Shown here one piece after another: positions 12,776-45,700 of a stretch of DNA of 64,000 bases. Source of the DNA: Antedon mediterranea (taxonomy: Eukaryota; Echinodermata; Crinoidea; Comatulida; Antedonidae); the NCBI RefSeq assembly GCF_964355755.1, contig NC_092673.1, positions 12,281,001-12,345,000 of the forward strand. Reading direction: 5' to 3'. How positions within the stretch are numbered: the first letter of the stretch is position 1; each line of letters opens with the position of its first letter. Below the pieces are notes generated by a model that was not told the origin of the DNA, searched no databases, and saw only the letters and a program-made list of their open reading frames with translations. The position numbers were made by a program, and so were the translations under genes.

Positions 12776-13330
12776 AATGGAAGAAAAGAAAGTAAGGCCG
12801 TCCAGACGACCACAACTCTTTTGTGGCTCTGGCGGTATCCTTGTCGAGCGAGCTCCCCCAATTACCATATGTTTATTAACGCTAATACGATAGCTGTTTG
12901 CAATTGTGGAGAGAAACCACCTACTCTCCAGAAGGGTCTCCCACACTCAGGCAAACCATCTTAGGCGACCTCCCACTTGTCTGACCTTTGGAGGGACCAC
13001 CAGCACGTCACCAGTACTTGCAATCACTGTTACTTTGCAATCTTGGTGTTGGACATGCAGCCCTGTCTGATCCGCCTCGTGCAGGATAGAGATTATGGGC
13101 ATGAAAAAGGACTGAATTTTAAACAGACTTGTGGTGGCAGCCATGGAGGCTAATGATTGCACCCTCTTTTCATAGCAACCTCATCAGCAGCCAGCAGGGT
13201 ACAGGCCACATTACATCTGTGAGGGGAAAAGTCATGCGCCCACTATCGGTTGCTACCTTCAATATCCTGCTCAGCAAAGCATGCATAGTAACTGGAAATG
13301 ACCTTATTTCCGTAATCAACGATTGAGAAG
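12776..13330 (-). pseudogene. DIRS/gypsy-like relic, proximal RT part
   Basis: Minus-strand frames read QVGGRLRWFA, an in-frame stop, then VWETLLESRWFLSTIANSYR. The GGRL..F..W......W.L..I..GY pattern sits just before the RT palm in DIRS and gypsy elements. Upstream frames are broken. With 11872-12371 it forms one element split by a LINE tail. Confidence 0.5.
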
Positions 13331-13879
13331 CCTTTAAATTGTTTTTCTTATGAATAATAAATTCATTGAAGATAAGATATGGAATAACCATGTGACGATC
13401 TCTTTTAAACGAAACAGCCATTTCGAAGGTTTTAGATTAAACAGTTTTTTAGGATCGTTTTTTTTTCTGTGTAATTTTGCAGAAATATAAAATCAAAACC
13501 TAATTTTTTTAACAAGTAAATATCAATATAATAACTGTATACTACTGTATTTATATTTGAAAAAAAATCATGATGTTTAAGATCAATGTTTATTATTGTG
13601 ATTTTGTATACAATAATAATAAAAACATTTAGGCATATACCATATTATATAATTATAGCTGATTATTATACTAGCCTACGAAGAGGCCTAGGCCTTAGAC
13701 AGTTACGTAGTATCTATTATTAATACAGTATAGTATACCCAGCAGACAGACAATATAATAAAGGGTACTGTTTTATATTTTACAGATTGATCTGAGATTT
13801 TCTCTAATTAATATTGTATTATATTTAAATTTCAGCTGCTTTCGGCTTTTTGGGTGTTCGACCTCCTTAATTATTTCAG
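13331..13879. other. Intergenic, nothing recognised
   Basis: AT-rich, with an AGGCCTAGGCCTTAG palindrome near 13683. No coding sequence supported. Confidence 0.4.
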
Positions 13880-14792
13880 GGACATGGTATGCGCCTTCAT
13901 AATGGATGTCGCTCTGGTATTCTCATTGCACAAAATAATCGTTTCCTTCTGCATGTATGGACTCGCCTCCCTGCTCTCCTAGCAGTCCCAACTCAACTCC
14001 CTACTTCTTTATTGATGGCAGTACATGATCCTCAAGTAAGTGGAGCTTAGGGGATATTCTTTCATTCTATTGGTGAAAGTCGTCCATAAATCTGTATAAA
14101 TATAACATTATTTTAAATATTGATTACATTTGTTCTCATTCCATAATTTTACAACTCGTAAAGAAAACTTTATTTATATATAGTAGTTTGAAATCAAGAA
14201 AAATGATACCAATTGATTGGATGTCATCGGTTGTTACACCCTGCAATTGTTATTGCTGTTGTGTACTGCTGGGTATTTAGAGAGTAAGTTGATGTACTTT
14301 ACTTCAATCTAAGCTGCTTTCGTCATTGGCAGTTGTCCCTTACTAATGGACAAGAGATCTGCCTCTACAGTATACCAACCACTCTACAACCATTCTTGCA
14401 TAGGTCACGTAAGACTTTTATAAAAATAAATACAGTATTATAATAGTAGTAATAATAATATAAATAAGATTCATGTATATAAAGAGGCCTACTACTATTA
14501 TTTATTAAAATTAGAATAAATAATTCTACATACATAGCTTTAGTGCCTTGTGCACATGATTGCTATTGAATTGCCATTGGCATCAGCAACACTTACGATT
14601 TGTATCTCTGCTTTAAAACTTTCACCACCATGATCTCCACCAAACTTCAGCCATATCTCATTGTCGATGTATATTTAAAGTTTATTTTGCCTGTAAAATA
14701 TAATAACAATGTTATTCTTTTTTGACAGGAACAAAATGTGGGCACAGAATTTAGAAGATAAAATTATAAACTTATTGGTGGTACTCGTCAAG
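13880..14792 (+). CDS. Unidentified three-exon gene fragment
   Basis: Three candidate exons have matching phases: 13880-14035 (acceptor TTATTTCAG, donor CAA|GTAAGT), 14333-14403 (acceptor TTGGCAG, donor CATAG|GTCACG) and 14729-14792 (acceptor TTTGACAG, donor AAG|GTAATT). Joined, they give about 97 codons without a stop, including RSGILIAQNNRFLLHVWTRL and EICLYSIPTTLQPFLHR. The family was not recognised. No start codon exon was found, and the next possible acceptor (near 15214) leads quickly to a stop, so the gene may be broken or the exons may belong to an old insertion. The stronger donor at 14408 would break the phase. Confidence 0.33.
14570..14695 (-). pseudogene. Fragment of a repetitive GGDHGG-SFK type protein
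   Basis: Minus-strand translation reads IWLKFGGDHGGESFKAEIQI, ending at a GTAAGT. The word I/LKxGGDHGGxSFK is, from memory, characteristic of a protein of unknown function repeated in many invertebrate genomes and probably transposon-encoded. A stop lies just upstream in frame. The identification rests on this one motif. Confidence 0.35.
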
Positions 14793-15726
14793 GTAATTAA
14801 AACCAAAGCCTTTATATCTAGGATGTGAACAACAGCTACCTCTTTCAAACTGAGACCTTTGTGCTGACTGGAATAAACAACAGTTACTCATTTTTTTATT
14901 CCAACTCGCAAAGCAGTTCCTTCTAGCGTTCTCTCATTATCTTTTCTGACGGTATTAGTCCTGGAACATACCTGGACGTTTATTAATGCAAATAACTTAA
15001 TATAGGAGTGCCAACATAATAATATACTGTATTATATAGCATCTATATTTAATTAAAATACAACTCCTATTAAGGGGACACCTTCAGGACCTAAAAAATT
15101 GTCAGAAAAGAGGGCAATTCTATAGCATATGAATCATTGTTTTATCCATACAAATACAGTAGGTATATGTAGTTACATTACTTATTATTATTTTACCTTC
15201 TTATCTTCAACAGTTGATTCCATAGAACATTTGATCTGTCATCATCGCCAGCGCCTTATCAACTGTGATGCTTTTCCTTGCATTGATGCTTGCAGCCTAT
15301 AATGTTTGGGATGGTGTTGATTTTAGTAAGGCCATCTCCTGCTTATCTGAACAACTATTGCTGATCTGTTTTTGAGTGGGTTTTTACTGCATTTTTCCTA
15401 GGCTGTTAAACACGCGTGTTTATAATGTTTAGTGTATAGATTGGATTACCCAAAAATCTATAATAATTTTTAGAAGAATTTAACGCACTTGTCAATTGTA
15501 TGCCCATAACCACCACCTCCGCCCCTGCGGATGTGCGTCATATCCCAGCATAAAAAAGTGGATTACCTTAAGGTGACTATGTTTATGATAATTATGGTGG
15601 GTGGTAAAGTGACGGGCAATGACACACCAATGTTTGTCAAAAATTATTAGTAAATCATGCACCTCTCCCGGGGTTCATAAGTGGGTCATTCAATTGACAA
15701 ATGCATAAAAATGTATTTAATAATAG
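14793..15726. other. Intergenic, nothing firm
   Basis: No supported gene. A possible exon after CTTCAACAG near 15214 contains HLICHHRQRLINCDAF in one frame but is soon stopped. Confidence 0.35.
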
Positions 15727-16864
15727 TAGGCTAGTCAATCTAGCAAAAAAAACAGCCCAAAGTGAAACAAATTGCAAACAGAGATTTTTCTTTTTTAAAT
15801 GGTCATATATGATGAGGAGATCAAAATTTGAGCATCACACCTCTGTCACTCATCCCGATGATATGCAAATTAGCTTAAATATGCAAATTAGGGTGAAATT
15901 ACAGGGTTACCATATCTCAAAAACTACTAGTCCGAGAGAGTTGATTTTTTCACTGATCTATTCAAAAAGTATATATTTATATTTACTCTAATGAAACATT
16001 TTACGAAAAAATGACCGGAAGTACAACATTTGACCTTCGACCCCATTTCTCAATGTTTGCATACAATGTGACTAAAATGTCTGTAGAGACTTTATTTTGC
16101 CCTCAAATGACCCAGACATAGGTTCCTAATAGCCAGCATAGGATCACTTTGTAATTCCCAAAATCACACCTTTGTCACACACCTCGAAAGTATGCAAATT
16201 AGTAGTACAATTTAAATAAAATATGCAAATAAGGGGAAAAAATTACAGTTGTCCTATATCTCGAAAACCACTAATGCTAGAGAGCTGATTTTTTCACAGC
16301 CGTATTCAAAATGTACATATTTCTATTTGCTCCAATGAAACATTTTACAAAAAATTGACCGGAAGTATGACATTTGACCCTCGACCCCATTTCTCAATAC
16401 AGTATTGCATATATAAATGAAACTAAAATGTCTGTAGAGACTTTGTTTTGCCCTCAAATGACTCGGAGACAGGTTTCTAATAGCCAACATAGGAATGTTT
16501 AGTAAATCTCAAAATCACACCTGTATCACTCACCTTCAAAGTATGCAAATTATTAGTACAAGTTACATGAAATATGCAAATTAGAGGGTGAAATTAAAGG
16601 TTCCTATATATCGAAAACCACTAAGGCTAGAGAGTTGATTTTTTCAATAACTTGTTCAGAATGTACATATTTATATTTACTCTAATGAACCATTTTACGA
16701 AAAAATGACCGGAAATACAACAATTGACCCTCGACCCCATTTATCAATGTTTGCATACATAATGCGACTAAAATGTCTGTAGAGACTTTGTTTTGGACTC
16801 AAATAACTTGGACATGTTTCCTATAGTCAGCATAGGACCGCTTTGTAATTCCCAAAATCACGCT

Positions 16865-16978
16865 TTCGTTTTGGCATAGTTGGAATTCCCTTTTTTCGTA
16901 TTAGTTTATGTACAGCGCTTAGAGGTTTCACAACATTAGGCGCTATATAAATCCAGGATATTATTATTATTATTATTT
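16865..16978 (+). repeat. SINE/LINE tail fragment inserted in the left foldback arm
   Basis: Interrupts a 345 bp unit. It contains TACAGCGCTTAGAGG..., AGGCGCTATATAAATCCAGG and a (TTA)n tail. The GCGCTATATAAAT word recurs near 7722 and, inverted, near 41409, and is a common 3' end of marine invertebrate SINEs and LINEs. Confidence 0.6.
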
Positions 16979-18040
16979 CTCAATATTTGCATATAATGCA
17001 ACTAAAATGTATCTACAGACTTTGTTTTGGCCTCAAATGACTCGGATACAGGTTTTATATAGCCAGTAAGTCAAGCACCTCGAAAGTATGCAAATTAGTA
17101 GTACAAGCTATATGAAATATGCAAATTACAGTGAATTGCCTTATGTATCTCGAAAACGCTAATGACCGAGAGAGAAAGATATGGCAACTTTCTTGTACTA
17201 CTGATTTGCATACTTTCAAGCGAAGTAACAGAGGTGTGATTTTGAGAATTACTAATCAGTTCTATGCTGGCTATAGAAAAACCTGTATCTGGGTCATTAT
17301 TGAAAAAAAAAATTATCGAAAGTATGACATTTGACCCTCGAACCTATTTCTCAATATTTGCATATAATGCAACTAAAATGTATGTACAGACTTTGTTTTG
17401 GCCTCAAATGACTTGGATACAGGTTTTATATAGCCAGTATAGGATCGTTTAGAATTCCAAAAGTCAAGCAACTCGAAAGTATGCAAATTATTAGTACAAG
17501 TTATATGAAATATTCAAATTACAGCCTTATGTATCTCGAAAAACGCTAATGACCGATAGAGATATGGCAACTTTCACCTCTTGTACTACTAATTTGCATA
17601 TTTTCTAGGGAAGTAACAAAGGTGTGATTTTGAGAATTACTAACATTTCTATGCTGGCTATAGAAAACCTGTATCTGAGTCATTTGAGGCCAAAACAGTC
17701 TGTACAGATATTTTAGTTGAATTATATGAAAATATTGAGAAATAGGGTCAAGGGTCAAATGTCATAATTCAATCAAGACAATTTTTGCGTAAAATGTTTC
17801 ATTACACGAATATAAATATGTACATTCTGAATCAACTCTGAATTCAAATCAACTCTCTAGAATTAATGGTTTTTGAGATATGGGAAGACTGTAATTTCAC
17901 CCCTAATTTGCATATTTCATGTAACTTGTACTAATAATTTGCATACTTTCAAAGTATGTGACAAAGATGTGATTTTGGGAATTACAAAGAGGTCCTATGC
18001 TGACAATAGGAAAACTGTATCCGAGTCATTTGAGTCCAAA

Positions 18041-18845
18041 ACAAGACCAACAGCCATTAAGTCGCGTGCTACAATGCATAGTGATACCGGACCGACAGAA
18101 AAACAGACCGACAGACAGACAGACGGACCGACCGACATAGTGAACTATACTGACCGAAATTACTGAACATGTTTAAAAATGTTGAAATGTTTAAAAACAT
18201 TTATATTTTTTTAATTTACACGTGCGTAGCCTGTCACTTTTGACGTGCTCGTATAACGTAATTTCGAGTTGAAAAGTAAGTCAAGAAAACAGAAATCGGG
18301 TAGGAAGAGTGCGCAATAACATTTAACGCGCAGTGCGCGCGCAAAAATCTGCGCACTCATGGCAATTTTGTAAACGCTTAAAATTGCCTGAAACGTACTC
18401 TTATTTCATCGAAAATAAATTTTGAAAATTTTAAGCGCGCTTACGCATGCGTTACATGCGCTACGCACGTAATTGTATTGCCATATGATGATTTATGCCC
18501 TGAAATTTATGAGTACCAAATTTTATTTAACTGTGATTCATGGTTGTTAAGATATGATTACAAACGTGATTTCGTTAAATCGTGCGTAGACCGCGTAATT
18601 TTTTATTGCGCACCGTGAAAACATAACCACATCGATTCCTGGCCATAAGGAATATTCTGTGAAAAATTGACTTAGCTAGATTAAACTGATATCAAGATAA
18701 GGTCATAAAGCGATAAAACACATAGTGATACCGGACCGACAGACAGACAGACAGACAGACCGACAGACAGACCGACAGACAGACCGACAGACAGACAGAC
18801 CGACCGACATAGTGAACTATAGAGTCGCTTCCACGCGACTAAAAA
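18041..18845 (+). mobile_element. Hairpin-ended GACAGACA element, copy A
   Basis: One of four copies in the window. It starts with ACAAGACCAACAGCC, AAGTCGCGTG and a (CGACAGAC)n tract, then has TAGTGAACTATA, a unique core rich in GCGCGC and ACGCATGCG, a second copy of the GATACCGGACCGACAG...TAGTGAACTATA block, and a terminal hairpin (AGTCGCTTCCACGCGACT) followed by AAAAA. It interrupts a foldback unit between TCCAAAACA and TATCTACAGAC. No coding capacity seen. Confidence 0.75.
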
Positions 18846-19021
18846 TTATCTACAGACATTTTAGTCGCATTATGTATGCAAACATTGATAAATAGGGTCA
18901 AGGGTCAATTGTTGTATTTCCGTTCATTTTTTCGTAAAATGTTTCATTAGAGCAAATATAAATATATGTACATTCTGAACAAGTTTTTGAAAAAATCAAC
19001 TCTCTACCTTAGCGGTTTTCG

Positions 19022-19689
19022 ACACATCAGAACAACTTAATGGTAAACTAGATAAAGTCCTAGAAAATCAAAAAAACTACAACAAAAGGCTTACCAAACT
19101 GGAAACAACTGTCAAAGATCTAGAAAAAAGTGTGGAATATGCGCATGATTCAACTAACAAAACGAAGGAAGAAATAAAAAAAATTGGAAATGAAATCAAG
19201 AAAATGGAAGAGTATGAAAACAAAATGGCGGCTTATCAGGATAAAATGGCGGACATGGAAAATTCAATCCTAAAACAAGAAAGATACAGTAGGAGTTTTA
19301 ATCTAAGGTTTGGAGGAGTTATAGAAAATGCTACAGAAAACACCCAGGACTTATTGCAAAAAGTACTACGCGAAGAACTCGGACTCGAGGACATCGAAAT
19401 TGAAAATTGCCATCGCACCGGGAAACGCCGTTTAGATAACAAACCGAGGCATATAATAGCTAAATTTCTGTACCGTCCACAAAGAAACCAAGTCCTAAAA
19501 CTAGGAAAAGTAAAATTAAAAAGTAAATCACAAAACGTATTTATTACTGAAGATTTACCTGACGCGGACATGAAGAAAAAGAGAGAATTATCTACAATTA
19601 TGGCGCAGGCATATGCCGAAAAACGTAAGCCCGTATTCAGAAATGGACAACTGTTTATCGACGGTAAGCCATACAAGCCACTAAAATAA
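19022..19689 (+). CDS. LINE ORF1-type nucleic-acid chaperone, N-terminally truncated
   Basis: Open from the insertion junction to the TAA at 19687-19689, about 222 codons, with no initiating Met near the start; the first ATG in frame is at 19204. Residues 1-80 are a heptad-like coiled coil rich in K, E, L and N. Then come RSFNLRFGGVIENATEN, NCHRTGKRRLDNKPRHIIAKF and ITEDLPDADMKKKREL, which match in order the RRM-like and C-terminal domains of L1-type ORF1 proteins (transposase_22 family): RNA-binding, trimerising proteins that coat the element RNA. The reading frame is undamaged where present. The minus-strand ORF over it is a shadow. Confidence 0.75.
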
Positions 19690-20580
19690 CTATAATTAAG
19701 TCATTAAGCCAAATTAATTAATGTTCAATTGAACACAATTAATTAATGTTTATGAATTATATTTCATACCTACATTACCGCAGAGTCTATCATTGTCTTG
19801 TAGAACGTAGACTAATTATGTGATTGTAGTAGTATTTCTACCGTTATAAATTGTAAATAAACGAAGTTTGTTTGTTTATGTCGCGCACCTGGCTGTTAGT
19901 GTTATGTTCTGGATATCTCTGTCCATTCAAACTTTAATTCATGTGACCCACGGCAGGTGTGCGACGATAGTGTTACATAATGAGAAATACCAACAACAAT
20001 TAAGTGGCTGTTGACGATGTAAGTTTCAACGTAGTTGTTTACCGGTAATTCATCGATGAGTTACTGGGTTGATCAAACTCGTAAACGTTAAACACATCGT
20101 TTTAATAAAACACAACACAACTAAATGTATTTAAGTTATACTATCCGTACTTTACTAGTGATGTATAATGACAAATTATAACAAAATTAAGTGGCTGATG
20201 TGATTAATAAGTGAGCGCCGTTATTGAGACATCATGTTCTAGACCGTTTCAACGTAGCTGTTTACCGGCGATGTTTGACTTACCAGTGAGTAACGATAAC
20301 TTGCCATAATAATACATTCTGGACATCGGTGAGTTAGATTGATCAAAATCTTTCAAGTTAACCAAATACTTAATTGGCGTCCATGATCATCATTATTGTT
20401 TCACTGCCTGTCGTTTAGTTGTTGTTGGTATGTCATGATAAAACAATTCATATTACATTGTATATATTGTAATTTATTGTACATACTTGTTAACTTAGGC
20501 TATTATGTGTTAACTATTCTCTGCTGTAAGCAGCTTGCTCAATTTTATTCATTTGTCATTTCCTTTTCTGTCTAATTTAA
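19690..20580. other. Long inter-ORF region of the LINE
   Basis: Unusually long for a LINE inter-ORF spacer. It contains TAAATAAACGAAGTTTGTTTGTTT near 19855, resembling a polyadenylation signal plus 3' tail. After that are two diverged copies of a block with CAACGTAG(T/C)TGTTTACCGG (near 20028 and 20251) and TTGATCAAA (near 20069 and 20340), which could be tandem 5' UTR or promoter monomers for ORF2. Confidence 0.5.
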
Positions 20581-23547
20581 ATGTTTGAATGTGACCTTTT
20601 TGATAATGTAAATGTGAGCACAGAATATTTTAACGAAGATAACTTAATTTCTTCACTTGAACATTCTAATTTATCATCAAACTTTTCTATATTTGGACTA
20701 AACTGTCGTAGTGTTGTTAATAAGTTTGACTTAATCTCAAACTATTTAGACTCACTCGTACATGCCTTCTCCGTTATTGCCTTCAGTGAAACCTGGTTAA
20801 CCAAAAAAGATAATATTAATCTATACCAGTTACCAGGCTACAGTTTGATTCACAATGATAGGAAAGATAAGAGAGGTGGTGGGGTAGCGTTCTATGTTAC
20901 CAACAAACTAACATATATTATTAGAAATGATCTGTCATCTTGTATGACTGAAGCAGAGACTATTTTTATTGAGATTGAGTTAGAATCAGGAAATAATGTT
21001 ATTTGTGGTATAGTTTATAGACCACCCTCACGTTCCTTGCAAAAGTTTGATGATGAATTAACATGTGTAATGCAAATGATTAATCTAGAAAAAAAGAAAT
21101 CTTACCTTGTGGGAGACTATAACATAAACTTACTCCAACAATCTACCGACAACACTATCCAATCACACTTAGACACAATATTTTCTCAGTCATTTCAGCC
21201 AATCATAAAAAGTCCTACTAGAATATCCGATAATTGTGCTTCAATAATTGATAACATTTATTGCAACATCGATTCTTTTACTACGTCCCTTAAAAGTGGA
21301 ATACTTATTACTGATATTTCTGATCACTTCCCAATATTCTGTGTAGATACTTTGGAAAAACATAATAAGCAATATCCTCGATTTGTATATAAACGACAAT
21401 ACTCTCCTCAACAAACGGAGTATTTTTTGCAAGAATTACAAAGTAATCAGTGGAATGATGTGCTATTCTCAAATAATGCGAATGTTGCTTATCAAAATTT
21501 TACAAACACTTTAAATAAAACAATTGATAATTGTTTCCCTTTAAAACGAATTAGAAATAAGGCGAACAAGTTAAAATCTCCTTGGATCACAGCTGAAATT
21601 GCCAGAGCTATCTCTCAAAAACATAAATTATATAAAAAGTACAAACAAAATAACACCACTACTAATAAAAGTACGTACATACATTTTAGAAACAAGTTAA
21701 CCACTACTATTAGAAATCGGAAAAAAGAATATTATATGGTCCAGTTTGAACGAAATAAACAAGATATTAAAAAAACGTGGACAATCCTAAATGATATAAT
21801 GGGTAGGAAAAAGACTACCAATTTGCCTACAAAAATAAAATTGGGTACTGAGACTTTCTCTGATAATGATGAGAAAGCTGATGCATTCAACTCTTTTTTT
21901 ATTAATATTGGAGAAAAACTAAATAATAAATTTAGGCATGAATCTCAAAATGAAGAAATCACCCACAGAACTTTCTTAAAGGGAAATTTTACCTCTTCAA
22001 TGTTTTTTAAGCCTGTTACTGAACATGAACTTAACCACTATATTAAAAACACAAAGAATACTTCTCCTGGCCATGATGGTATAAGTGCCCAACTCATAAA
22101 ATCTGCTTCCCCGTTTATTTTAAAACCTTTATTGCATATTATTAATACGTCATTATCATCGGGCTGTGTCCCGGCTGATATAAAAATTGCTAAAGTTATC
22201 CCGGTATTTAAGAATGGTGACATCTCCGATATAAATAATTATCGGCCTATTTCCATTTTACCCTTTTTTTCCAAAATATTTGAGAGGATTGTGTATGATC
22301 AAACGATTTGTTACCTCTCAAAATATAACGTACTGAGTAAAACACAGTATGGATTTAGACAACACCATTCAACTAGTCATGCTTTAATACAATCGATTGA
22401 AAAAATCACAAACGCTATTGAGAATAAAGAGTTCACACTAGGAGTTTTCCTTGATTTATCAAAAGCGTTTGATACAATCGATCATGATATATTATTAGAT
22501 AAGTTAAGATTTTATGGTATAAGAGGAGTTCCGCTAAACTGGTTCTCAAACTATCTTAAAAAAAGACTACAATACACATTTATTGTTAATACTGCATCTA
22601 GTAAAATGACAGTAAACACTGGAGTTCCTCAGGGATCCATATTGGGTCCATTATTATTTCTTATATTCATTAATGATATTAGTCTAGCATGTAACCATGT
22701 AGACATGATTATGTATGCAGATGACACAAATGTGTTTTATAGTCACAATGATATTACTCAAGCTTTTGATACAATGAACCAGGAGTTATCTATACTTTCG
22801 GACTGGTTTATTGCTAACAAATTAACGCTAAATGTAAACAAATCAAAATATGTTATATTTAAGGCTAGAAATAAGTCAGCTGACACTACCTCACTAGAAT
22901 TGAGGATGGGAAATGAATGTATAGTAAAAGCTACTGAAGTTAAATTTCTAGGCTTATTTCTGGATGAAACTTTATCGTTTAATTTTCATGTAAATGAGGT
23001 AGCAAACAGTATTTCTAGAATAATTGGTGTCTTAAACAAAGTGAAGTCTATGTTATCAAGTAAAATCTTGTTAACGGTATACAATGCACTTATATTACCT
23101 AGAATAACGTATGCTATCACAGTATGGGGTGCTACTTCTGCTACAAACTTAAACCGTATACATATTCTCCAGAAAAAAGCACTTAGAAATATTTGTCATG
23201 TTCATTTTATGCATCCTTCTCATCCACTTTTTATTTCAACCCAAACATTAAATATTTTTGACCTTTATACGAAACACACTGCTATATTTATGTATCAATA
23301 TAAACATAATCTATTACCTGAATCATTTAATAACTTATTTAGTACATCTGCCTCATTCCATAATTACTCAACTAGAAACAGGTCAAACTACTGTCCACAA
23401 CTAAAACGCACCAAAGTCGGACAGCAATGTATTTCCTACCAAGGAACACATATTTGGAACAATTTAACAGACTATATAAAACAATCCCCCACTTTAAGTT
23501 TGTTTAAACAGAGATTAAAGCAATATTATAACAATAGAAATATTTAA
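20581..23547 (+). CDS. LINE ORF2: apurinic-type endonuclease plus reverse transcriptase (jockey/CR1 superfamily)
   Basis: 988 codons, no interruption. Residues ~30-260 form the endonuclease, with GLNCRSVVNK, AFSETWL (Glu), RGGGVAFYV, GIVYRPPS, VGDYNINL and the catalytic ISDHFPIF. Residues ~500-830 form the reverse transcriptase: KVIPVFKNGD..INNYRPISIL, motif A LDLSKAFDTIDH, motif B GVPQGSILGPLLF, motif C MYADDTN, then LNVNKSKYVIF and FLGLFLDETLSF. The C-terminus has YSTRNRSN, GTHIWNNL and a basic FKQRLKQYY end. All catalytic residues visible are intact, so the protein could be functional. It nicks DNA and primes reverse transcription at the target. GDYN replaces the more usual GDFN. Subfamily (Daphne/Crack/CR1) was not resolved. 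Confidence 0.95.
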   Translation: MFECDLFDNVNVSTEYFNEDNLISSLEHSNLSSNFSIFGLNCRSVVNKFDLISNYLDSLVHAFSVIAFSETWLTKKDNINLYQLPGYSLIHNDRKDKRGGGVAFYVTNKLTYIIRNDLSSCMTEAETIFIEIELESGNNVICGIVYRPPSRSLQKFDDELTCVMQMINLEKKKSYLVGDYNINLLQQSTDNTIQSHLDTIFSQSFQPIIKSPTRISDNCASIIDNIYCNIDSFTTSLKSGILITDISDHFPIFCVDTLEKHNKQYPRFVYKRQYSPQQTEYFLQELQSNQWNDVLFSNNANVAYQNFTNTLNKTIDNCFPLKRIRNKANKLKSPWITAEIARAISQKHKLYKKYKQNNTTTNKSTYIHFRNKLTTTIRNRKKEYYMVQFERNKQDIKKTWTILNDIMGRKKTTNLPTKIKLGTETFSDNDEKADAFNSFFINIGEKLNNKFRHESQNEEITHRTFLKGNFTSSMFFKPVTEHELNHYIKNTKNTSPGHDGISAQLIKSASPFILKPLLHIINTSLSSGCVPADIKIAKVIPVFKNGDISDINNYRPISILPFFSKIFERIVYDQTICYLSKYNVLSKTQYGFRQHHSTSHALIQSIEKITNAIENKEFTLGVFLDLSKAFDTIDHDILLDKLRFYGIRGVPLNWFSNYLKKRLQYTFIVNTASSKMTVNTGVPQGSILGPLLFLIFINDISLACNHVDMIMYADDTNVFYSHNDITQAFDTMNQELSILSDWFIANKLTLNVNKSKYVIFKARNKSADTTSLELRMGNECIVKATEVKFLGLFLDETLSFNFHVNEVANSISRIIGVLNKVKSMLSSKILLTVYNALILPRITYAITVWGATSATNLNRIHILQKKALRNICHVHFMHPSHPLFISTQTLNIFDLYTKHTAIFMYQYKHNLLPESFNNLFSTSASFHNYSTRNRSNYCPQLKRTKVGQQCISYQGTHIWNNLTDYIKQSPTLSLFKQRLKQYYNNRNI

Positions 23548-23552
23548 GTTAA

Positions 23553-24178
23553 AGCCCCATTCCCTACGTTTTTTAGATGTAATTTAAGATCACAAACTAT
23601 ATTTAATGTAAAAATAATACTATATGGTCCTATTCCGATAACTTTTTTCGTCTTTAAACGGTTAAAAATGTGAAAAATAAGTCGATTTTAATAATTATAG
23701 CGGCCCGCTATAAATCCCCAAATGCATTGCGCGCGGATTGATATTTTTGTTTTTCACCTGTAATTCGCCCACTTTTCGATCGATCGTGAGGCCAAAACAA
23801 ATGGAAGACTCCTAACTTTTCAGCGAAAATACCGGGTTTTCCCCAATTTGTATCAACGGAGTCTGGCAAAAATAGAAAGACAATTAATGCAGCAACTATA
23901 CAACGTCAGGCTAGGTATATAGCTAGCGTACGATGTTCGCACGTTACCGATGTTTACCAGCTAGGCCTACAAAACTAAGCATAGCCAGGCTAGGCCTAAG
24001 ACCGTCCACGAGAGGTCGATCGCCGCGAGCTACTTAGGTAGTGCATTGTTTCTCACTTTTTATCATAATTTACCATAGAACGTACATTTAAGACAAGGAA
24101 TGACATGGTTTAATGTTTTTAAAGTGATATATATGTATTATTTTCCAAAAAACGTCCAAAATTGCAGGGAAGGGGTCT
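23553..24178. mobile_element. TTAA-flanked MITE inserted just after the LINE ORF2 stop
   Basis: Flanked on both sides by TTAA (23549-23552 and 24179-24182). Ends are imperfect inverted repeats: AGCCCCATTCCCTACG at the left and AGACCCCTTCCCTGC at the right (reverse complement). A 626 bp non-coding interior contains AGGCCTA palindromes. TTAA duplications are typical of piggyBac and Kolobok elements; no transposase is present. Confidence 0.75.
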
Positions 24179-25224
24179 TTAAGTAAATCACATTATGTTA
24201 TTTTGGTTTGTTCTTTTTGTGTGTACTAATTGTTTGATCTTTTTGTTAGGGTTACATGCTTAAAGCACTTGTGCTTATTTTGTATCCCATTCCATTATCT
24301 TATTATTTGTATTGTATTTGTATATGTTTTTATTTTGATTATGGAATAAAAATGTCGATGAATTGAATTGAATTGAATTGATATAGGAACCTGTAATTTC
24401 ACCCCCTAATTTGCATATTTCATGTAACTTGTACTAATAAATTGCATACTTTGAAGGTGAGGTGAGATTTACTAAACATTCCTATGTTGGCTATTAGAAA
24501 CCTGTATCCGAGTCATTTGAGGGCAAAACAAAGTCTCTACAGACATTTTAGTTTCATTATATATGCAATATTGAGAAATGGGGTCGAGGGTCAAATGTCA
24601 TAGTTCCGGGCATTTTTTTGTAAAATGTCTCATTACAGTAAATATAAATATATACATTTTAAATATTTTAGTGAAAAAATCAACACTCTAGCATTAGCGG
24701 TTTTCGAGATATGGCAACGCTGTAATTTCACTCCCTAATTTGCATATTTAATATTACTTGTACTACTAATTTGCATACTTTCGAGGTGCATGACGAAGTT
24801 GTGATTTTAGGAATTATAATACAGTTCTATGGTGGGTATTGAAAAACAATATCCAAGTCATTGAGTCCAAAATAAAGTCTCTACAGACATTTTAATCACA
24901 TGTAAATATTGAGAAATGGGGTCAAGGGTCAAAATTTGGTACTTCCGGACATTTTAATGTAAAATGTCTCATTAGAGCAAATATAAATATATATATTCTG
25001 AACCAGACTGTGCAAAAATGAACTCTCTACGATTAGTAGTTTTTAAGATATGGTAACCCTGTAATTTCACCCTAATTTGCATATTTAAGCTAATTTGCAT
25101 ACCTTCGGGATGAGTGTCAGAGGTGTGATGCTCAAAAAATAATCACCTTATCATATGTAACCATTTAAAAAAAAAATGTCTGTTTGCAATTTGTTTCACT
25201 CAAAATGCTAGATTGACTAGCCTA

Positions 25225-25625
25225 TAGTGATTGATTACAAATATTTGGTGTTCTAAGGTATTTTACAAATCATCATTTTATTTAAATATTATATATACAG
25301 ACAACTATTCATTGCCATCCAGCTTAACTAGAAATACTGTACTATATGTACAATAATTATTTATCTATTAATTTTAAATAACTAAAAACCCACCTAGGAT
25401 TTTCTTTGTGTTATGAATGAATTATAACTATATTACAGTATATTGTATATTAACTATATATGAATAATATGGTATTACTTACTCTCCCATTTGTGGCCAT
25501 GAGTGTTTCCCGCCACCTTGTCGTAGTTGTGTAATGACCAATTTATCATTGTTGGGAAATAGCAGGAGGAATGTGAACATTCTTAATTAATGATTCTTTT
25601 AGAACTTTTGCATCTACAACAGTGT
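25225..25625. other. Intergenic, nothing recognised
   Basis: AT-rich spacer between the foldback element and the 40 bp minisatellite. Confidence 0.4.
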
Positions 25626-25850
25626 TGTCTTCTACCTTATATGCATTGCTCACGCATGTGTGGATATGTGTAGATTCGTATGTCATTGCTCACGCATGTG
25701 TGGATATGTGTAGATTCGTATTTCATTGCTCACGCATGTGTGGATATGTGCAGATTCGTATTTCATTGCTCACGCATGTGTGGATATGTGTAGATTCGTA
25801 TGTCATTGCTCACGCATGTGTGGATATGTGTGGATTTGCATTTCATTGCC
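25626..25850. repeat. 40 bp minisatellite
   Basis: Five to six copies of a unit beginning CATTGCTCACGCATGTGTGG, with starts at 25644, 25684, 25724, 25764, 25804 and a diverged 25844. The period is 40 bp, so the frame shifts each unit, and plus-strand ORFs here are artefacts. Read on the minus strand, the first unit continues the reading frame of the RAG1-like finger (THIHTC), suggesting the array grew from that coding segment. Confidence 0.92.
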
Positions 25851-26446
25851 AGATTACATGCCTTTACACCGTACAATTGACTCGTGTAAAGCCTTAGTTA
25901 AAATCTTTGGGAGAAATACTAATGAATCATGATGAACATTCTAATCACAAATTACACAATCAAAGGTAGATTTACGAAGAGCAGCGAAGACATAATTTAA
26001 ACAGGACGTACAATAAATGTGAGCACAGGGGGCTATACGGTGATCAAAACTTAAAATGTTTGAACACAATTTACAACAAAAAAGATCTGCCTGCCTCTTC
26101 ATCAGTAAGAAAGTTTGAACTTGAACCATGTGTTAACATAAACGGTTGAATTTTTAATGGACTGTACGGTTTCTGATGCTCTCGAAATAAAAACCTGCAA
26201 CAAAAGTTGGAGTATGATCAGTAAAAAAAAATTTACTTTGTACCGTGTCATTTCTTTTTGTACTGTCCAAAAGACAATAGCTGCAGACAGTTACAGGGAA
26301 GATGGACAATTTAAATAATTCAGATTTGTGATAAATTTTACTGATCAGCACCTTTCATTTGTTTTGATCTTCTTGCCACAAACACAGCAAATTGATTGTA
26401 GAGCACATAAATGATTTTTGCACATGTGACAGACTAAACAACCGCA
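25820..26446 (-). pseudogene. RAG1-like N-terminal zinc-binding region, decayed
   Basis: Read on the minus strand, in order: CGCLVCHMCKNHLC then ICCVCGKKIKTN (26446-26366); after one frameshift, SIFPVTVCSYC and FFFTDHTPTF; after two stops, a RING finger with CCKLCSNIL, APCAHIYCTSCLN and FDCVICD (26070-25944); an in-frame TAG; then ILTKALHESIVRC and, after another frameshift, CNLAMKC..THIHTC. RAG1 has the same order: CxxC finger, HP..FC..C, HTP..C..C, RING, then a C2H2 finger. The distance from the last RING cysteine to the first finger cysteine is 26 residues here and, from memory, also in RAG1. In RAG1 this region dimerises and acts as a ubiquitin ligase; the recombinase core was not found nearby. 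Could be a relic of a RAG-like transposon or another RING/zinc-finger gene. Confidence 0.5.
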
Positions 26447-26962
26447 CTACAGGCTGTTTAGGCATAAACAGCCTGCTAGGCTGCTATGATCTCGTGCGAT
26501 CGCCAAAAATATTGCCTATGTTCAGGATACAATAAAATAAAAATATCACCAATTTTATATTTTGGAAAATGAAAATAACAACATTAACAATTAATTCTTT
26601 TCAAAAATTTATTGAAAAATTAGTTTTCGATTTTAGCTTTAAAAGAAACAAAGTGAAATTACACTCCCTGGCTCATCGCCGTATAAGTTGGTTTGTTTAA
26701 ATTTCTAGAAATATCTAGGTTGTGTAAGGAAAAACATTTTTTTTTAATCTATTGCGCAAAATATTTGTGTCATACACAGACTACTAAAAAGCTGTGGCTG
26801 ATTTTAGCAATCAAAACGGCTCTCGGAACACTTAATTTCCATTTTTGCCTATTTGACGTTGATGTGAGGGTGGCCTGCTGCTTCTGTTTAACTGATAAGC
26901 AGTGTAGCCTTAAAGCTTCAAAGATTGACTGGGCTGTATGCTCCACATGAACATCAGCACAG
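26447..26962. other. Unassigned region upstream of the RAG1-like relic
   Basis: A minus-strand open frame at 26770-26962 reads HTAQSIFEALRLHCLSVKQK and PRAVLIAKISHSFLVVC. It lies in the right place to be a further N-terminal part of the same relic but matches nothing I recognise. Confidence 0.3.
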
Positions 26963-30724: not shown

Positions 30725-32640
30725 AAATGTTGAATATTATTGGAATTACCGAAACGTGGGGTATAACCTCTTCCGAAGAGATCATGATGGTACAACCTCA
30801 GCAGGAGGAGTAATTATGTTATCTCACAAGTCATTGTGTCACAAGTAATATCTCCGTGTTATGTAGGCCTACTAATCAGTATAATGAAAGCTTCTTTTTT
30901 GTGGTCTTTTGTCATAAGTTTTGATTTTATGTATGTGAGAAAGAACAGAAAAGAAAGACAATAAAAATTATTATTATCTGAAACACTATTGGTTGGTGTA
31001 TGTCAACACAAACCAACAGAGCCCTAAGTATACTAATCCACGAAGCAGAATTTAACTCACCGACTGTTAAGCGGAGACTTTAATTATCCCAAGGTTAAGT
31101 GGGAGGAATATAGAGTAGAAGCTGAAGGCATAAATGGAGAAGATGCTGAAAGGTTTTATGAAACAACGCAAGATATACTTTTGCATCAGCATGTAACAGA
31201 GTCAACAAGACACAAGGAAGGAAAAAAACCATCATTACTCGACCTGATTTTTACAAATGATGAACAATCTATTGAAGAAATACGGGATTGTATGTGTAGC
31301 CAATTTGGGAAATGTGACCATGATGTATTGTGTTTTGAGTACTAGAAACCCTATGGGAAGTGATGAAAAAAGCAAAAGAACTATGCAAAAGGTGACTATA
31401 AGAAGCTAAATGATGCTTTTGGGATGCTTGACTGGGATGTCCTGTTTGATAATAAGGACTTTAACCAGGCATGGAAAACCTGTAAGGAAACTTACAACCA
31501 AGAGACTGATATCAGTACAAAGATTACATTGAATTCAAACAACAGAGAAATGTTGCAAGGGCAAATGCGAAAAAGGCACGTATAGAACATGAGAGAAAAC
31601 TACTGAAAAACTTTAAATCCTAAGCCAGTGTATAAGTACATTAGAGAACAACAAATGGTGAAAGAAGGCATATCAAAACTTGAAAAAGAAGATAGGAGTT
31701 TGACTGAAAATGACCAGGAAGCAGTTGAAATTTTAAGTACGTTTTTTTGAATCCGTGTATACCAAAAAACCCGATGGTGACCTGCCCCAGTTTGAAAACA
31801 GGTACGCACTTAACATTAACAAGGCCATATAGATGGCTGCAGTCGCGTGCTCGTTAGTGTTTATCGACCGACCAACCTACCAACTGACCGAAATTACTGA
31901 ACATGTTTAAAAATGTTGAAATGTTTAAAAACATTTATATTTTTTTAATTTACACGTGCGTAGCCTGTCACTTTTGACGTGCTCGTATAACGTAATTTCG
32001 AGTTGAAAAATAAGTCAAGAAAACAGAAATCGGGCAAAAAGAGTGCGCAATAACATTTAACGCGCAGTGCGCGCGCAAAAATCTGCGCACTCATGGCAAT
32101 TTTGTAAACGCTTAAAATTTCCTGAAACGTACTCTTATTTCATCGAAAATAAACTTTGAAAATTTTAAGCGCGCGTACGCATGCGTTACATGCGCTACGC
32201 ACGTAATTGTATTGCCATATGATGATTTATGCCCTGAAATTTATGAGTACCAAATGTTATTTAATTGTGATTCATGGTTGTGAAGATATGATTACAAACG
32301 TGATTTCGTTAAATCGTGCGTAGACCGCGTAATTTTTTATTGCGCACCGTGAAAACATAACCACATCGATTCCTGGCCATAAGGAACATACTGTGAAAAA
32401 TTGACTTAGCTAGATTAAACTGATATCAAGATAAGGTCAGAAAGCGATAAAACGCATAGTGATACCGGACCGACAGACAGACCGACCGACCGACCGACAT
32501 AGTGAACTATAGAGTCGCGTCCACGCGACTAAAAATGTTATGTTTTCAGTAGAAGATTATATTAATCAAACAGCAACCAAGCCAAGCCCCTGGGCCAGAC
32601 GGTATCCGTAAAATTAGGTGCAGTTATACAAATGGAAATC
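30725..32640 (+). pseudogene. Decayed LINE endonuclease/RT, interrupted by a hairpin-ended element
   Basis: Pieces in order: LNIIGITETWG and RRDHDGTTSAGGVI (about 30730-30830), the endonuclease E and GGGV motifs; SGDFNYPKVKWEEY, LLHQHVTESTRHKEGK and SLLDLIFTND (about 31065-31265); a broken SDH region with DHDVLCFEY; a basic linker; FFESVYTKKPDG (near 31750). Then comes the insertion at 31819-32535, after which VMFSVEDYINQTATK and PGPDGIR continue the linker-to-RT sequence. Several frameshifts and stops; inactive. The LINE is truncated at the start of the RT. Confidence 0.78.
31819..32535 (+). mobile_element. Hairpin-ended GACAGACA element, copy B
   Basis: Same core and right end as copy A: TAGTGAACTATAGAGTCGCG and TCCACGCGACTAAAAA. 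The left end is a variant, ACAAGGCCATATAGATGGCT then GCAGTCGCGTGCTCGTTAGT, and lacks the left (GACAGAC)n tract. It sits inside the 30.7-32.6 kb LINE relic, between codons that read continuously on either side. Confidence 0.8.
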
Positions 32641-39757: not shown

Positions 39758-42700
39758 TCATCTACATGTCTCATGATATGCTTCCAACTTTCTCAGGTCA
39801 CGGTGCGTTGGGGGCAAGTTATCCTGCAGGTATTTTCCACATCGCTTGCAAGGTGTTGAAAATAGCTTGTTATAACTTCTTAACCAATTCTGTAGAAAAC
39901 AGAAAAAATGTTCGAATACCCCTAAATGATACAGTGAAAGAGTGCAATATAATTTATAATGATTAAAGTGTAGTGAATGGGAGAACGCTGGTGCATGTGA
40001 TTAATAATTATTAAAAATGATACACAGTTAATACTGTATATTACTGTTATAATAATAAAACTTGGTGTTATAGCAGCAGATAAAGCATCTATATATAAAT
40101 TTGCGTAAGGGCAAAATTTGGTAAATCGTGTAACTTCTGAAATTTTTCTCAAAGGTATATAAAGTTGGTTCATACTTTTGTATACGTACTGATTTTAACC
40201 ACCTAATTTAACCTTGGTTACTAATTAAATTTAGTTAGATAATTAGTTATTGACAATTTGATTAGGCCTATGTATATATTTAATGATTAGGCCTATGTAT
40301 ATATTTAATATACTTTTATATATATATTTTTTAATTTATTTGACTTAAACTTAACTTTGGAATTTTGGTATATAATATATTATGATGGTATTTTCATTGC
40401 TTGTGAAACTGGGTGAGTGGGGAACACAGGCTTAGGATTAGGTTCGCTTTTGTGTCCCCAGCCAGCTCACTCAGTTGGTTCTATTGTTTTTTTTGTATAT
40501 TGTGTTCTTCATGTATTTTATATTTGGCAATAAAAGAATAAGAATAAGAATAATAACAATTGACGATTTGCCCCAAATAGGGGTGATTTCTGGTCGTGGT
40601 ATACACTGTCTATGGATGTCAATCTTGAGTAATACCCGCACACACTAATACGAGGATGCTTCGCATTTACCTATCTCCTTCTACGATCATTGTTTTTAAC
40701 ACAAGTAAATAAATTTATGGGCCCTTGGTGGATAAACTTAAAACCTTTAGGTCTTATAGTAGGCCTATTGCAATACTGTAATTAGTTATCAGTGTTTTTG
40801 GTAGCAATTTGAAGCACAAATGTCTTACTGTGAGTGTGGGTACTGTAGATATAAACACATATACAAATAAACTTTATTACTGACACTCGGTGGCAGTTAC
40901 TTAACATTTGTATTGATTAATGATGACACAAACTATAAATGTCATACGTAGTGGTGATCGTTACTATTTCAATCGACTATGACAGTGACAGTATTAAATT
41001 GCAAATTTATAAAACATAAAAAAACAAATATATCGCGAGTGGATAAAGAATATAAATTGTTCCTCTTTGCACCCATTCTCTTCCTCATTCCTCAACCCTA
41101 ATGTTACATACAAACACAAATTGTGTTTATTTAAATTTGCATTAAAAATTTGGACTAATTTTATGATTTTGTGACAAGTTTCTCTTTCGGAAGTAATTCC
41201 CAGGTGTGTCAATTTTAGTTGACTACATAAATCACAGTGTCTATTTATTCTTTTCTGTAAACGACAATGTATTATAGTCCTGTGGTACTGTACGTGTCGT
41301 ACATTTAAAATCATCAGTTTTTTTACGCTGAAATTACTATTTACTCGAGAACCACTGGTGTATAGTAATTTAGGATTACATTGAGTATATAATAATGCGA
41401 CATTTATATAGCGCTATTTCGTATATACTGCACTTGACTTACATGCAACAACATTATAAAGAAAGTTCACTGTGGTACTTTAATACTATAATTCTGTTGT
41501 AACTATTGATTTAAACACAAACTGGCTTTTTATAATGCAAATGTGACTTACCATAAATTGTTTAAGTGCCATATCTGGTGAATTTGGATAATGGTAGTGC
41601 AGCATTGTAGATGTCACATGGTCTGTAATCTAAAAACAAATTTGTTGAAATTTAGGGCCTAAATGAAAATCAAACACCTTTAATTTGAATATTTATTTAA
41701 ATTTCTTTACACCGATGACATAAAAACATTCAATAAATATTTGTATTCTAAATCAACATTAAATATGTTCAAGTGGCTAGTTTCTGCGTGAGAAAATATT
41801 GTTAAAAAAGTTTGATTAAATAGTAAACTCGGCATCCATTATAGTACTTTATGTTGTTTTCTGGTGGCGACTATAGCTTCAAGAAACGGATTTTGACTTG
41901 ATTAGATTGTAATACTGGAGACTTTTCATAAATGCTACAACACATTTTCATACACGAACTGCGAGAGAGGAAAATCTGCGCACTATTTGATTACTATGAT
42001 TAGTCAGTTTAATACCAGGCCAATACATGCATGCGCATTAACAACTCAGGACATCTCAGAACAAAAACAGGCCTCTCATCAGTGTGATGTTCTACCAAGA
42101 TTTCCTCAAAATTGTCTTCACACTATGCAAACCTAGTTCTAGTTGGTAATTTTTAGTCGCGTGGACGCGACTCTATAGTTCACTATGTCAGTCGGTCGGT
42201 CTGTCTGTCTGTCGGTCCGGTATCACTATGCGTTTTATCGCTTTCTGACCTTATCTTGATATCAGTTTAATCTAGCTAAGTCAATTTTTCACAGTATATT
42301 CCTTATGGCGAGGAATCGATGTGGTTATGTTTTCACGGTGCGCAATAAAAAATTACGCGGTCTACGTACGATTTAACGAAATCATGTTTGTAATCATATC
42401 TTCACAACCATGAATCACAATTAAATTTGGTACTCATAAATTTCAGGGCATAAATCATCATATGGCAATACAATATACGTGCGTAGCGCATGTAACACAT
42501 GCGTACGCGCGCTTACAATTTTCAAAATTTATTTTCGGTGAAATAAGAGTACGTTTCAGGCAATTTTAAGCGTTTACAAAATTGCAATGAGTGTGCGCGC
42601 GCTGCGCGTTAAATGTTATTGCGCACTCTTTTTGCCCGATTTCTGTTTTCTTGACTTACTTCTCAACTCAAAATTACGTTATACGAGTACGTCAAAAGTG

Positions 42701-45700
42701 ACAGGCTACGCACGTGTAAATTAAAAAAATATAAATGTTTTTAAACATTTCAACATTTTTAAACATGTTCAGTAATTTCGGTCAGTTGATAGGTTGGTCG
42801 GTCGGTAAACACTAATGAGCACGCGACTGCAGCCATCTATATGGCCTTGTTTATTTTAGGTTGGATAAATTCATTAATCCAACTATTAAACAATAAAAAT
42901 AATATAAGTAATTATAATATAACCTAACCATGAAAATGTTATTTACCTTTTGAAAGACAAGATATTTTGAGGGGGTCCAGCAATCAGGCTAAAAACAATG
43001 ATACATAAACATATAAAGAATCAATTAACAAGTATTGTTGTTCCTTTATAGTGAAAACTAAACTTAAATCAATACAATGTCAAAAAAGAAATTTAAATTG
43101 CAATCAATGTTGGTTGATACACACCTGGGAAGAGATTGATATATTTTTTTGAAAATTAATAAAAGACGTGTCAGAAACAAAACATACACCTCCCCAAAGG
43201 CCCCGTTTCTGCTGCCAAAAATATACCGTATATATACGGTATATTTTATATACGGTATATTTTATATACGGTATATTTTATATACGGTATATTTTTTGTC
43301 AGCAGAAATGGGTCTCATAAAAAATATACCGTATATATATGCGGTATATATACCGCATAAATATCCCCATCGTTTGTGGATATTATACGGTATATTCCAA
43401 AATATACCGTATATTTCGTACCCCGTTTCTGCTGCACTCAAAATATACCGTATACGTGACCCGGCCCATGACACGAGGTCAAAAACTAACAGAGCGTGAC
43501 GCGTTTGTTTGGTTTTTCTGCTGCATTGACACACACGTGTATAATAAATAAGCAAGCAACAGATCAAAATATCACTGTGGACTGAAGAAATAACTATTTT
43601 TGCAATTCAATTGTGGGGAGAAGCGAAAGTTGGGGGGAGACTACATGGCAACAGAAGAGATACCGAGATTTACAAAAGTATCTCAAACAAAATAAAAGCA
43701 GAATTTGTGGTAGACTTAATAACGCCAAAGTTATCGGCAAACGCCGTCGTCTTCTTTGCATAAATGTAGTCAATGCCCATTCTACATTTCTAGATTGTTT
43801 GTGCGATGTAAATTCATTGCCACTTCCAGGGCCCACTTCTGATCATTAGATTTAAAATAGAAAGCAATGCTAAGACGTTTTGAGAAACCATCATTGTTTT
43901 GTTTTTGTCATGTAACCTCACTACACGAGACTCTAGGTCAATCCATACTTCCGTCTCACAAAATGCATTTTGGGTATATGAAAGCCAACTTTTTTTACAG
44001 CCCACCCACGAAGTATGTGCAGCGGAAACGGTGCACGAATTTTATATACGGTATATATACGGTATATTTATACGGTATATTTATACGGTATATTTATACG
44101 GTATATTTGGGATTGGCAGCAGAAACAGGGCCTAAGAGTGCTTTCAAGCTGAGTGGCCACAAATGGGCAACCACTAATATTATGAAAGTTAATAGGTTAT
44201 TTATTCAAGTAGAGTTGTCAAGCTGTTAAGGCAATGGCGTCGCAAGTCATAGCCACATTTTTGACATTGTATTGATTTAAGTTTTGTTTTACAGTATGGC
44301 GAGTGGTCAAGCATTTAAGACACTCCATGGTTCTGGTGGTAGAACGAGTCTTCTCGGATAAGGACTATAAACTGTAGGCCCAGTTTACACATCTTTCATG
44401 TGCACTTTAAAGAACCTAGTACCATCTTTTGAGACGAGTACAGTAGGGGGTTACCCCGGTGTACTAGTTCACACACAGCCACTGTCACAAACTCATCATA
44501 TTATATAATAAATAACAATATTCAGCAAATGCTCAAGGCACTCCTCGACCATAGTTCTAATGACCACGCCCTTCTTAGATAAGGACATAAACTGGAAGTC
44601 CAGTGTACATATATGGCTCATGTGCACTTAAAAGAACCCAGTGCATCTGCCGTTTGTGGTAGGTGCAGCACTGTAACTGCTGTGGATCTGTAAAGAACCT
44701 AATCCGAATTGAAGATTAATATTGATACAAGATACAGATATGTACACTGCACTAGTTTTGAATCAGTGGTTTTTATAATAATTTCAATACATCATGTATT
44801 GCCTTTCTGTAGTGTAACTAGAATATCTACAAACAACAAAGGCATGATTGGGAAGAATTAAACTTGTATGATTAACCCATAAAATCCAATTTATGAAAGG
44901 GTGAAATTGTTGATTTAAATTCTTTCTGAATTACTGAAATTAAGCATTAAACTTACTGATCCATCTTCTCTTGTTTCCTTTTCGTGTGTTGCCCTGACAA
45001 CGACCCTCTCTATCAACAAACCACGAAGCACTATGATGGCTTTGAATGTTCTGCTTACTGTTACCTAATAATATTCAACAGTGGATAATAAGAAAAATAC
45101 TTACCAAAAACATACAGCAATTTAAGATTGCTTATTTTACTGTAATAAAGTTGTTGATCCAATGCAGGATTTTTAATATCGTATGATCTACATTCAATAT
45201 TACAATCACTACAATTTCAGCATGCAACATTGTTCACATTTGAAAATCTTTTCAAATTTGTTTTATAACTTTACAATTTATCCTTTAACCGACAGATGGA
45301 TGCTTAAAAACAATGACCTCAATAACTGGTGTTTAAGGTGTAGTCAATGACAACATGCTGGGGAAAATCCCTGTATACAAAAGACTCAATTTGTCTGTAT
45401 TCTCACCTGAAGAACATAGGGGGATGTCTGCTTCCTATGAACAGTAAGATCTGCAAAATACTGATCTATACTTAAGATTATTGAATCAACATTACTGAAA
45501 ATAAATAAATGTATCCTACATTATATTATATAACATGCACCTGAGTGTAATGCTCAATATCTGATTGGTTAATTTCACATGACATTCAGTATTAGTTTAA
45601 CTGAACCGGAGTGTGGTTCTTATTGATGTAGGTTTTTGTAAATATGTGAATGGTCTGTAATCCAAGGTTGGTACAGTAAATATAAACTGTTCTACTTCTT

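Follow-up and report, generated by a model that had tools for sequence, protein, structure and literature searches.

Chapaev elements in which a Chapa domain is followed by a RING finger, the order also found in RAG1, make up two of the Chapaev subgroups (PMC4411706, citing Kapitonov and Jurka 2007). The hallmarks by which a Chapaev is recognised, among them the C(2)C, LH and H(4)H motifs, are taken here as given in PMC4079192. Similar N-terminal domains occur in other systems as well: as described in PMC7204232, the RAG1L proteins of molluscs and amphioxus carry C1-C3 fingers and a RING, and N-RAG-TP of Aplysia (Panchin and Moroz 2008), as summarised in PMC8355894, is a mobile element encoding only a RAG1-N-terminus-like protein. 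The latter source also presents a fusion scenario, in which RAG1 gained its N-terminus when an N-RAG-TP joined a Transib, and gives the target duplication of Transib and RAG elements as 5 bp.

The window analysed in this study is a 64,000-nt stretch of the Antedon mediterranea genome (NC_092673.1, 12,281,001-12,345,000 of the forward strand; GCF_964355755.1), and all positions below are window coordinates. An initial annotation had described a decayed RAG1-like N-terminal zinc region on the minus strand at 25820-26446. We searched the genome to which the window belongs (G000; 354 Mb, 18 contigs), whose loci are given L-numbers. L012, which lies on the same contig as the window element at a distance of 2.07 Mb, served as the main reference copy; the segment C4:10.23-10.34 Mb of G000 holds L012, L026 and L027. 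Multi-exon proteins of the relatives were pieced together manually from open frames alone, and in some of them certain exons are missing. Six such joined transposases form alignment A1, and a profile was built from these six rows. Very probably, the region is the first exon of a cut-and-paste DNA transposon of the Chapaev type (CMC superfamily) that is no longer active (Table 1), an assignment based on published hallmarks (motifs, ends and target duplication). Chapaevs with Chapa and RING domains have already been published (PMC4411706), and the window element is one more such transposon.

Table 1. Features of the putative Chapaev element in window coordinates
Feature	Position	Strand	Remarks
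Whole decayed element, probable Chapaev	13207..26866	-	13,660 bp including nested insert; 5′ end CACATCAACG at 26866, 3′ end AATGTG at 13207
5′ target-site duplication CCCT	26867..26870	-	
5′ terminal region	26767..26866	-	101 bp, 96% identical to L012
Exon 1 (broken): Chapa zinc domain, RING, C2HC finger	25483..26423	-	several frame-breaking gaps relative to L012
Open piece, first Chapa knuckle ICCVCGKK	26345..26446	-	C12 and C15 of A1
Open piece, second Chapa knuckle PVTVCSYC and H in TDHTPTF	26154..26354	-	
Open piece, RING finger CKLC / PCAHIYCTSC / CVIC	25941..26132	-	63 aa
Open piece, second half of C2HC finger (KAC...THIHTC)	25763..25897	-	other frame than RING
40-bp minisatellite, grown within exon 1	25640..25849	-	5.3 copies; overlaps THIHTC
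Splice donor GTAAGT, end of exon 1	25477..25482	-	same GR/GT end in intact relatives
Nested insert in intron 1	15729..25222	.	9,494 bp; non-LTR retrotransposon inside; 17-bp perfect terminal inverted repeat
Exon 2 remnant	15196..15368	-	E 2.9e-17 with L012 exon 2; one in-frame stop, one frame change
Exon 3 remnant	14798..14973	-	E 0.004; blastn 89% to L012
Remains of exon 4 with KFGGDHGG (putative first catalytic Asp)	14555..14671	-	E 6.6e-9; 3′ part gone
Deletion junction	14570..14575	-	about 1.43 kb of L012 length missing
3′ part colinear with L012, ends in exon 9	13577..14570	-	76.6%
Remains of exon 9 containing H(4)H and EQGGE (putative catalytic Glu)	13830..14090	-	E 3.8e-11; stop-broken
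3′ target-site duplication GCCT	13203..13206	-	3 of 4 bases agree with CCCT

All of the annotated Cys/His motifs were present on the minus strand in the order of the RAG1 N-terminus, spread over four open pieces that occupy two frames and are separated by stops and a frame change. The start codon of L012 exon 1 is absent from the window exon 1, and the last C-x2-C pair of the Chapa domain is unreadable in the piece 26154..26354, where FVAGF stands instead. The relatives that were read showed the pattern M-[ED]-[FY]-H...C-x2-C-G...C-x2-C...H...C-x2-C, then the RING, then C-x2-C...H-x-C, and their exon 1 closed with G-R immediately before a GT donor; one row had a shortened finger after the RING. 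The Cys/His positions were invariant in six of six A1 rows and, for the Chapa part, in eight of eight rows of a separate alignment.

The first Cys of the C2HC finger (VRC) lies in the frame of the RING, beyond a stop, in a stretch readable up to 25863. Read through this one stop, the last RING Cys and the first Cys of the next finger are 26 residues apart in the window, as they are in row 1 of A1 (C172 to C199) and in the aligned RAG1 chain, which bears out the annotated agreement with RAG1. In L012, where 33 bp are missing at this point, the spacing is 15. The annotation of the THIHTC finger needs one correction: it sits in a 40-bp tandem repeat, and THIHTC recurs in the window because 160 additional bases are minisatellite units. 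L012 has a single unit, reading IHACV, and thus the finger ligands are genuine and the additional copies in the window are a later expansion. Between window and L012 exon 1, 663 of 747 ungapped positions were identical. The gaps on the window side measure 5, 1, 3, 1, 2, 1, 3, 3, 2 and 1 bases, and those on the L012 side measure 33, 1 and 160 bases. Because L012 is frame-shifted too, the window copy is not the site of every break.

When the 63-aa RING piece was searched against the genome, 27 matches with E ≤ 0.001 were obtained, representing 26 distinct loci including the window, with a best value outside the window of 9.3e-17. This recurrence indicates that the window motifs are not due to chance. 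Copies better preserved than that in the window exist elsewhere in the genome: an unbroken frame of 283-306 aa surrounds the match at 16 of the 26 exon-1 loci. Exon 9, which carries the putative catalytic Glu, was found on the same strand no more than 14 kb downstream at at least 21 of the 26 loci, the window included, and at least 20 of these had it within 5.4 kb (40 of the 82 exon-9 matches were used for this count). Two stretches shared by L009 and L010 showed identities of 98.5% and 95.7%, indicating that this transposon group moved recently.

Exon proteins of the relatives matched the window downstream of exon 1, on the same strand and in the correct order. Exons 2, 3, 4 and 9 were located at 15.4-13.8 kb, about 10 kb downstream of exon 1, and the earlier statement that no catalytic core lies next to the zinc region therefore does not hold. 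Protein searches of the window gave no convincing match to exons 5 to 8 of the relatives. By blastn, the window was colinear with L012 from 26867 to 13227 at 70-96% identity, interrupted by the insert, by a single large deletion and by some minor gaps. The deletion takes the rest of exon 4 and exons 4b, 5 and 6, plus the sequence up to the next L012 match; the colinear segment 13577..14570 probably includes remains of the exon preceding exon 9, for which there was no protein match.

The window keeps the first Asp, the Glu and H(4)H, and the second Asp, C(2)C and LH fall in the deletion. Among the relatives, D412 and E794 were present in all six A1 rows, as were C(2)C and H(4)H; GDYxF was found in six of the eight relatives read, and LH was seen in those in which exon 6 was found (exon 6 of L031 was not found). 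By our own reading of the alignment, we take KFGGD, GDYxF, C(2)C, H(4)H and EQGGE to be the counterparts of RAG1 D600, D708, C727/C730, H937/H942 and E962; KFGGD, which lies outside the part of the alignment displayed, is presumably D600. With the second catalytic Asp missing from its transposase and several exons broken, the window copy must be inactive.

The insert in intron 1 has long satellite-like inverted arms (15761-16609 and 25200-24381, 85%). The non-LTR retrotransposon within it has open frames at 18991-19689 and 20581-23547, the latter of 988 aa with an RVT_1 match at 2.1e-35. A dispersed repeat of about 600-730 bp occurs four times in the window (18149-18765, 31808-32536, 42149-42861 and 60933-61514), with about 92-97% identity between the long pieces.

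The 5′ end, CACATCAACG, lies at 26866, and L012 and the other repeats read begin at the same point. The first ~82 bp of the terminal region were common (80-89%) to other repeats, including a 2.3-kb non-autonomous family, and a search with the 5′ end found at least 38 places besides the window and L012 (40 of 56 candidates scored). The terminal 101 bp (26767-26867) were 96% identical to L012, compared with 70-89% for the remaining long pieces; either conversion or constraint on the ends that the transposase binds could account for this. The L012 element measures 6,279 bp and has TTGT on either side, and the same site is empty in L029 (GCGCTTGTCGG). L026 and L027, which have the 3′ flank of L012, end in GAATTGAATGTG; the 3′ end is thus GTG in two of the three copies with the common flank and GTT in L012. 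The non-autonomous family (L036 and L037) has the ends CACATCCACG and GGTGAATTGAGTGTG and the duplications AACT and ATCT, shares both ends with the window element and contained no 120-aa frame in two fully read copies. From the ends in L026, L027 and the non-autonomous copies, we placed the end of the window element at 13207 (AATGTG). When the window 3′ end was compared with the last 19 nt of L026, 3 of 1000 shuffles matched equally well. A candidate 3′ end at a CCCT nearer the element body was replaced by AATGTG/GCCT on the basis of L026, L027 and the non-autonomous copies.

The ends are of the CAC...GTG type that is a Chapaev hallmark (CACATC...AATGTG in the window) and not the CACTRTG-type terminal repeats that the initial annotation had proposed to look for. 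Terminal inverted repetition is limited to about 5-8 nt (CACAT(T)CAA-like), and over 60 nt of the L012 ends, 97 of 300 shuffles scored as well. Target duplications of 4 bp (3-4 bp in Chapaev) were seen as TTGT, AACT and ATCT, and in the window as CCCT/GCCT with three of four bases agreeing. The annotated view of a decayed RAG1-N-terminus-like region is supported, and the region is part of a transposon relic.

L012, L026 and L027 share a GC-rich ORF as their 3′ flank. A paralogue of this ORF is open in L029 (241-2385), where it encodes 714 aa with a weak Pkinase match (5e-4). The flank ORF may be virus-derived; a scan of IMG/VR viral contigs with the 714-aa ORF revealed no relative, and a scan of IMG/VR with the transposase profile likewise revealed none.

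An intact element would encode one multi-exon transposase, with the Chapa zinc domain, RING and C2HC finger in exon 1 and a RAG1/Transib-like DDE nuclease supplied by the later exons, marked by KFGGDxGG (first Asp), GDYxF (second Asp), a C(2)C...H(4)H zinc site and EQGGE (Glu). This protein would bind the element ends (CACATC...GTG), excise the element and reinsert it elsewhere with a 4-bp target duplication. A later 9.5-kb insertion into intron 1 moved exon 1 and the core apart. The DNA itself shows the order of the exons, the termini, the decay of this copy, near-identical copies elsewhere, the catalytic motifs of the relatives and, at one relative, a target duplication matched by an empty site; splicing of the exons and a DDE cut-and-paste mechanism are what we infer for the element, and the DDE residues would be catalytic to judge from their position. 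By analogy with RAG1, the RING may serve as a ubiquitin ligase or a dimerisation module.

When PDB was searched with the A1 profile (best 60 of the 108 sequences at E ≤ 1 inspected), the top three were RAG1 (3jbw, 3.6e-8; 6dbi, 1.7e-7; 6dbv, 1.8e-7), matched via the RING and the next finger. Next came BRCA1 (3.5e-6) and TRAF6 (4.9e-6), level with the RAG1 chains 1rmd (5e-6) and 6cg0 (8.1e-6). The RING itself is therefore not exclusive to RAG1. The refuting outcome named in the initial annotation, best profile hits to an unrelated RING/TRIM or TRAF family, was not clearly obtained. Pfam analysis of the window RING piece alone gave generic RING/MIZ families as best, with all values below the cut-off and no RAG1 family listed. 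Pfam RAG1_imp_bd was matched by two of the six relatives (best 0.0015, no cut-off shown) and DUF1280 by all six.

A separate RAG1 N-terminal chain (21wb) matched A1 positions 4-69 (0.036). With the Chapa part alone, a RAG1 N-terminal chain was top in PDB (0.005), with Fin, an unrelated zinc protein, level with it (0.0055); hhalign gave 86.6% for RAG1 versus 87.7% for Fin, and none of 500 Cys/His-preserving shuffles reached either. The Chapa domain alone is thus insufficient as proof of RAG1 kinship. RAG1 and Fin were told apart by alignment reach, which was 81 columns for RAG1 versus 52 for Fin, and not by Chapa score. Three RAG1 stretches matched the A1 profile in order with 34.6 bits as a test construct, compared with 10.7 bits for Fin. 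The RAG1 core scored 4.8 bits against the profile in the PDB search and 6.4 bits alone, a value reached by none of 500 shuffles. Taken together, these comparisons make a distant kinship to RAG1 across the whole length likely. Membership in RAG1/RAGL is not supported. Searches of the genome with PF12940 (RAG1) and PF03089 (RAG2) gave no match, nor did these families match in 14 control genomes, and a 306-aa RAG1 core query, run without a positive control, gave no match in the genome.

Three other origins were considered. The suggestion in the initial annotation of an N-RAG type element, that is, a transposon whose only gene is RAG1-N-terminus-like and which has no core, is highly improbable. 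Exon 1 does stand isolated for 10 kb in the window, and 5 of the 26 exon-1 loci had no same-strand exon 9 within 14 kb (among 40 of the 82 exon-9 matches), but these five are weak matches (E 3.0e-5 to 9.4e-4), the core exons lie downstream in the window, and the exon with the putative catalytic Glu is present at at least 20 other loci. In addition, the element ends lie outside the core in both the window and L012, and for the window copy the colinearity with L012 and the position of the termini refute an N-terminus-only element.

It is extremely improbable that the region is the relic of a true RAG-like transposon (RAGL, TransibSU or ProtoRAG) with a RAG1L core and RAG2L. Although the N-terminal domain order is that of RAG1, and fingers with a RING are shared by the RAG1L described from molluscs and amphioxus (PMC7204232), the window core is of the type of its relatives (LLGEQGGESIHA), and against the profile of these relatives the RAG1 core scores just 4.8 bits. 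The target duplication is 4 bp rather than the 5 bp stated for Transib/RAG (PMC8355894), the ends read CACATCAACG rather than CACTRTG, and the genome gave no RAG1 core or RAG2 match in searches that had no working positive control. A host gene turned pseudogene, either a TRIM/TRAF-like E3 ligase or a domesticated N-RAG gene, would agree with the match of RING families to the fragment alone, but the chance of such an origin is negligible given the 26 loci, at least 21 of them with the last exon of the transposase, and the element ends in the window and in the relatives read for ends.

The dead Chapaev copy in the window is of an ordinary kind and mildly interesting for the history of RAG1. It offers a clean example of a transposase with the front-end order of RAG1, and a warning that an intron and a nested insert can mimic a free-standing RAG1 N-terminus. 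Conservation of the RING and Chapa ligands across all aligned diverged relatives suggests that selection acts on the N-terminus within the transposon, which bears on the role of the RAG1 RING before adaptive immunity. Tentatively, and with more doubt than confidence, we raise the possibility that N-RAG-TP is itself exon 1 of a multi-exon RING-Chapaev whose core was missed past an intron, and that the front and core of RAG1 were inherited together. If so, the Chapa-RING front and the core of RAG1 would come from one Chapaev/Transib-type ancestor, as proposed in PMC4411706, and the near-identical copies in this genome would allow tests of the role of the RING in transposition.

Compared with vertebrate RAG1, the element has a Chapa-like zinc region, a RING and a finger at 26 residues in the same order, and core D, D, CxxC, HxxxxH and E residues that we take to be in matching order. 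It differs from RAG1 in its weak similarity beyond the RING and next finger, its 4-bp duplication, its nature as a transposon and the lack of a visible RAG2 partner. N-RAG-TP of Aplysia is likewise mobile with a RAG1-N-terminus-like protein, but its description, as summarised in PMC8355894, covers an N-terminus only, whereas a core is present here. In RAGL, ProtoRAG and TransibSU, RAG1L likewise has fingers and a RING, but the ends and the duplication length differ from those of the window element. What sets the window copy apart from Chapaevs with Chapa and RING domains is its inactivity, the 9.5-kb insert that divides it, the loss of exons 4b-6 and its minimal inverted repeats. Taken with its relatives, it has in common with those elements the domain order, the DDE core, the C(2)C/LH/H(4)H motifs, the CAC...GTG ends and the 4-bp duplication.
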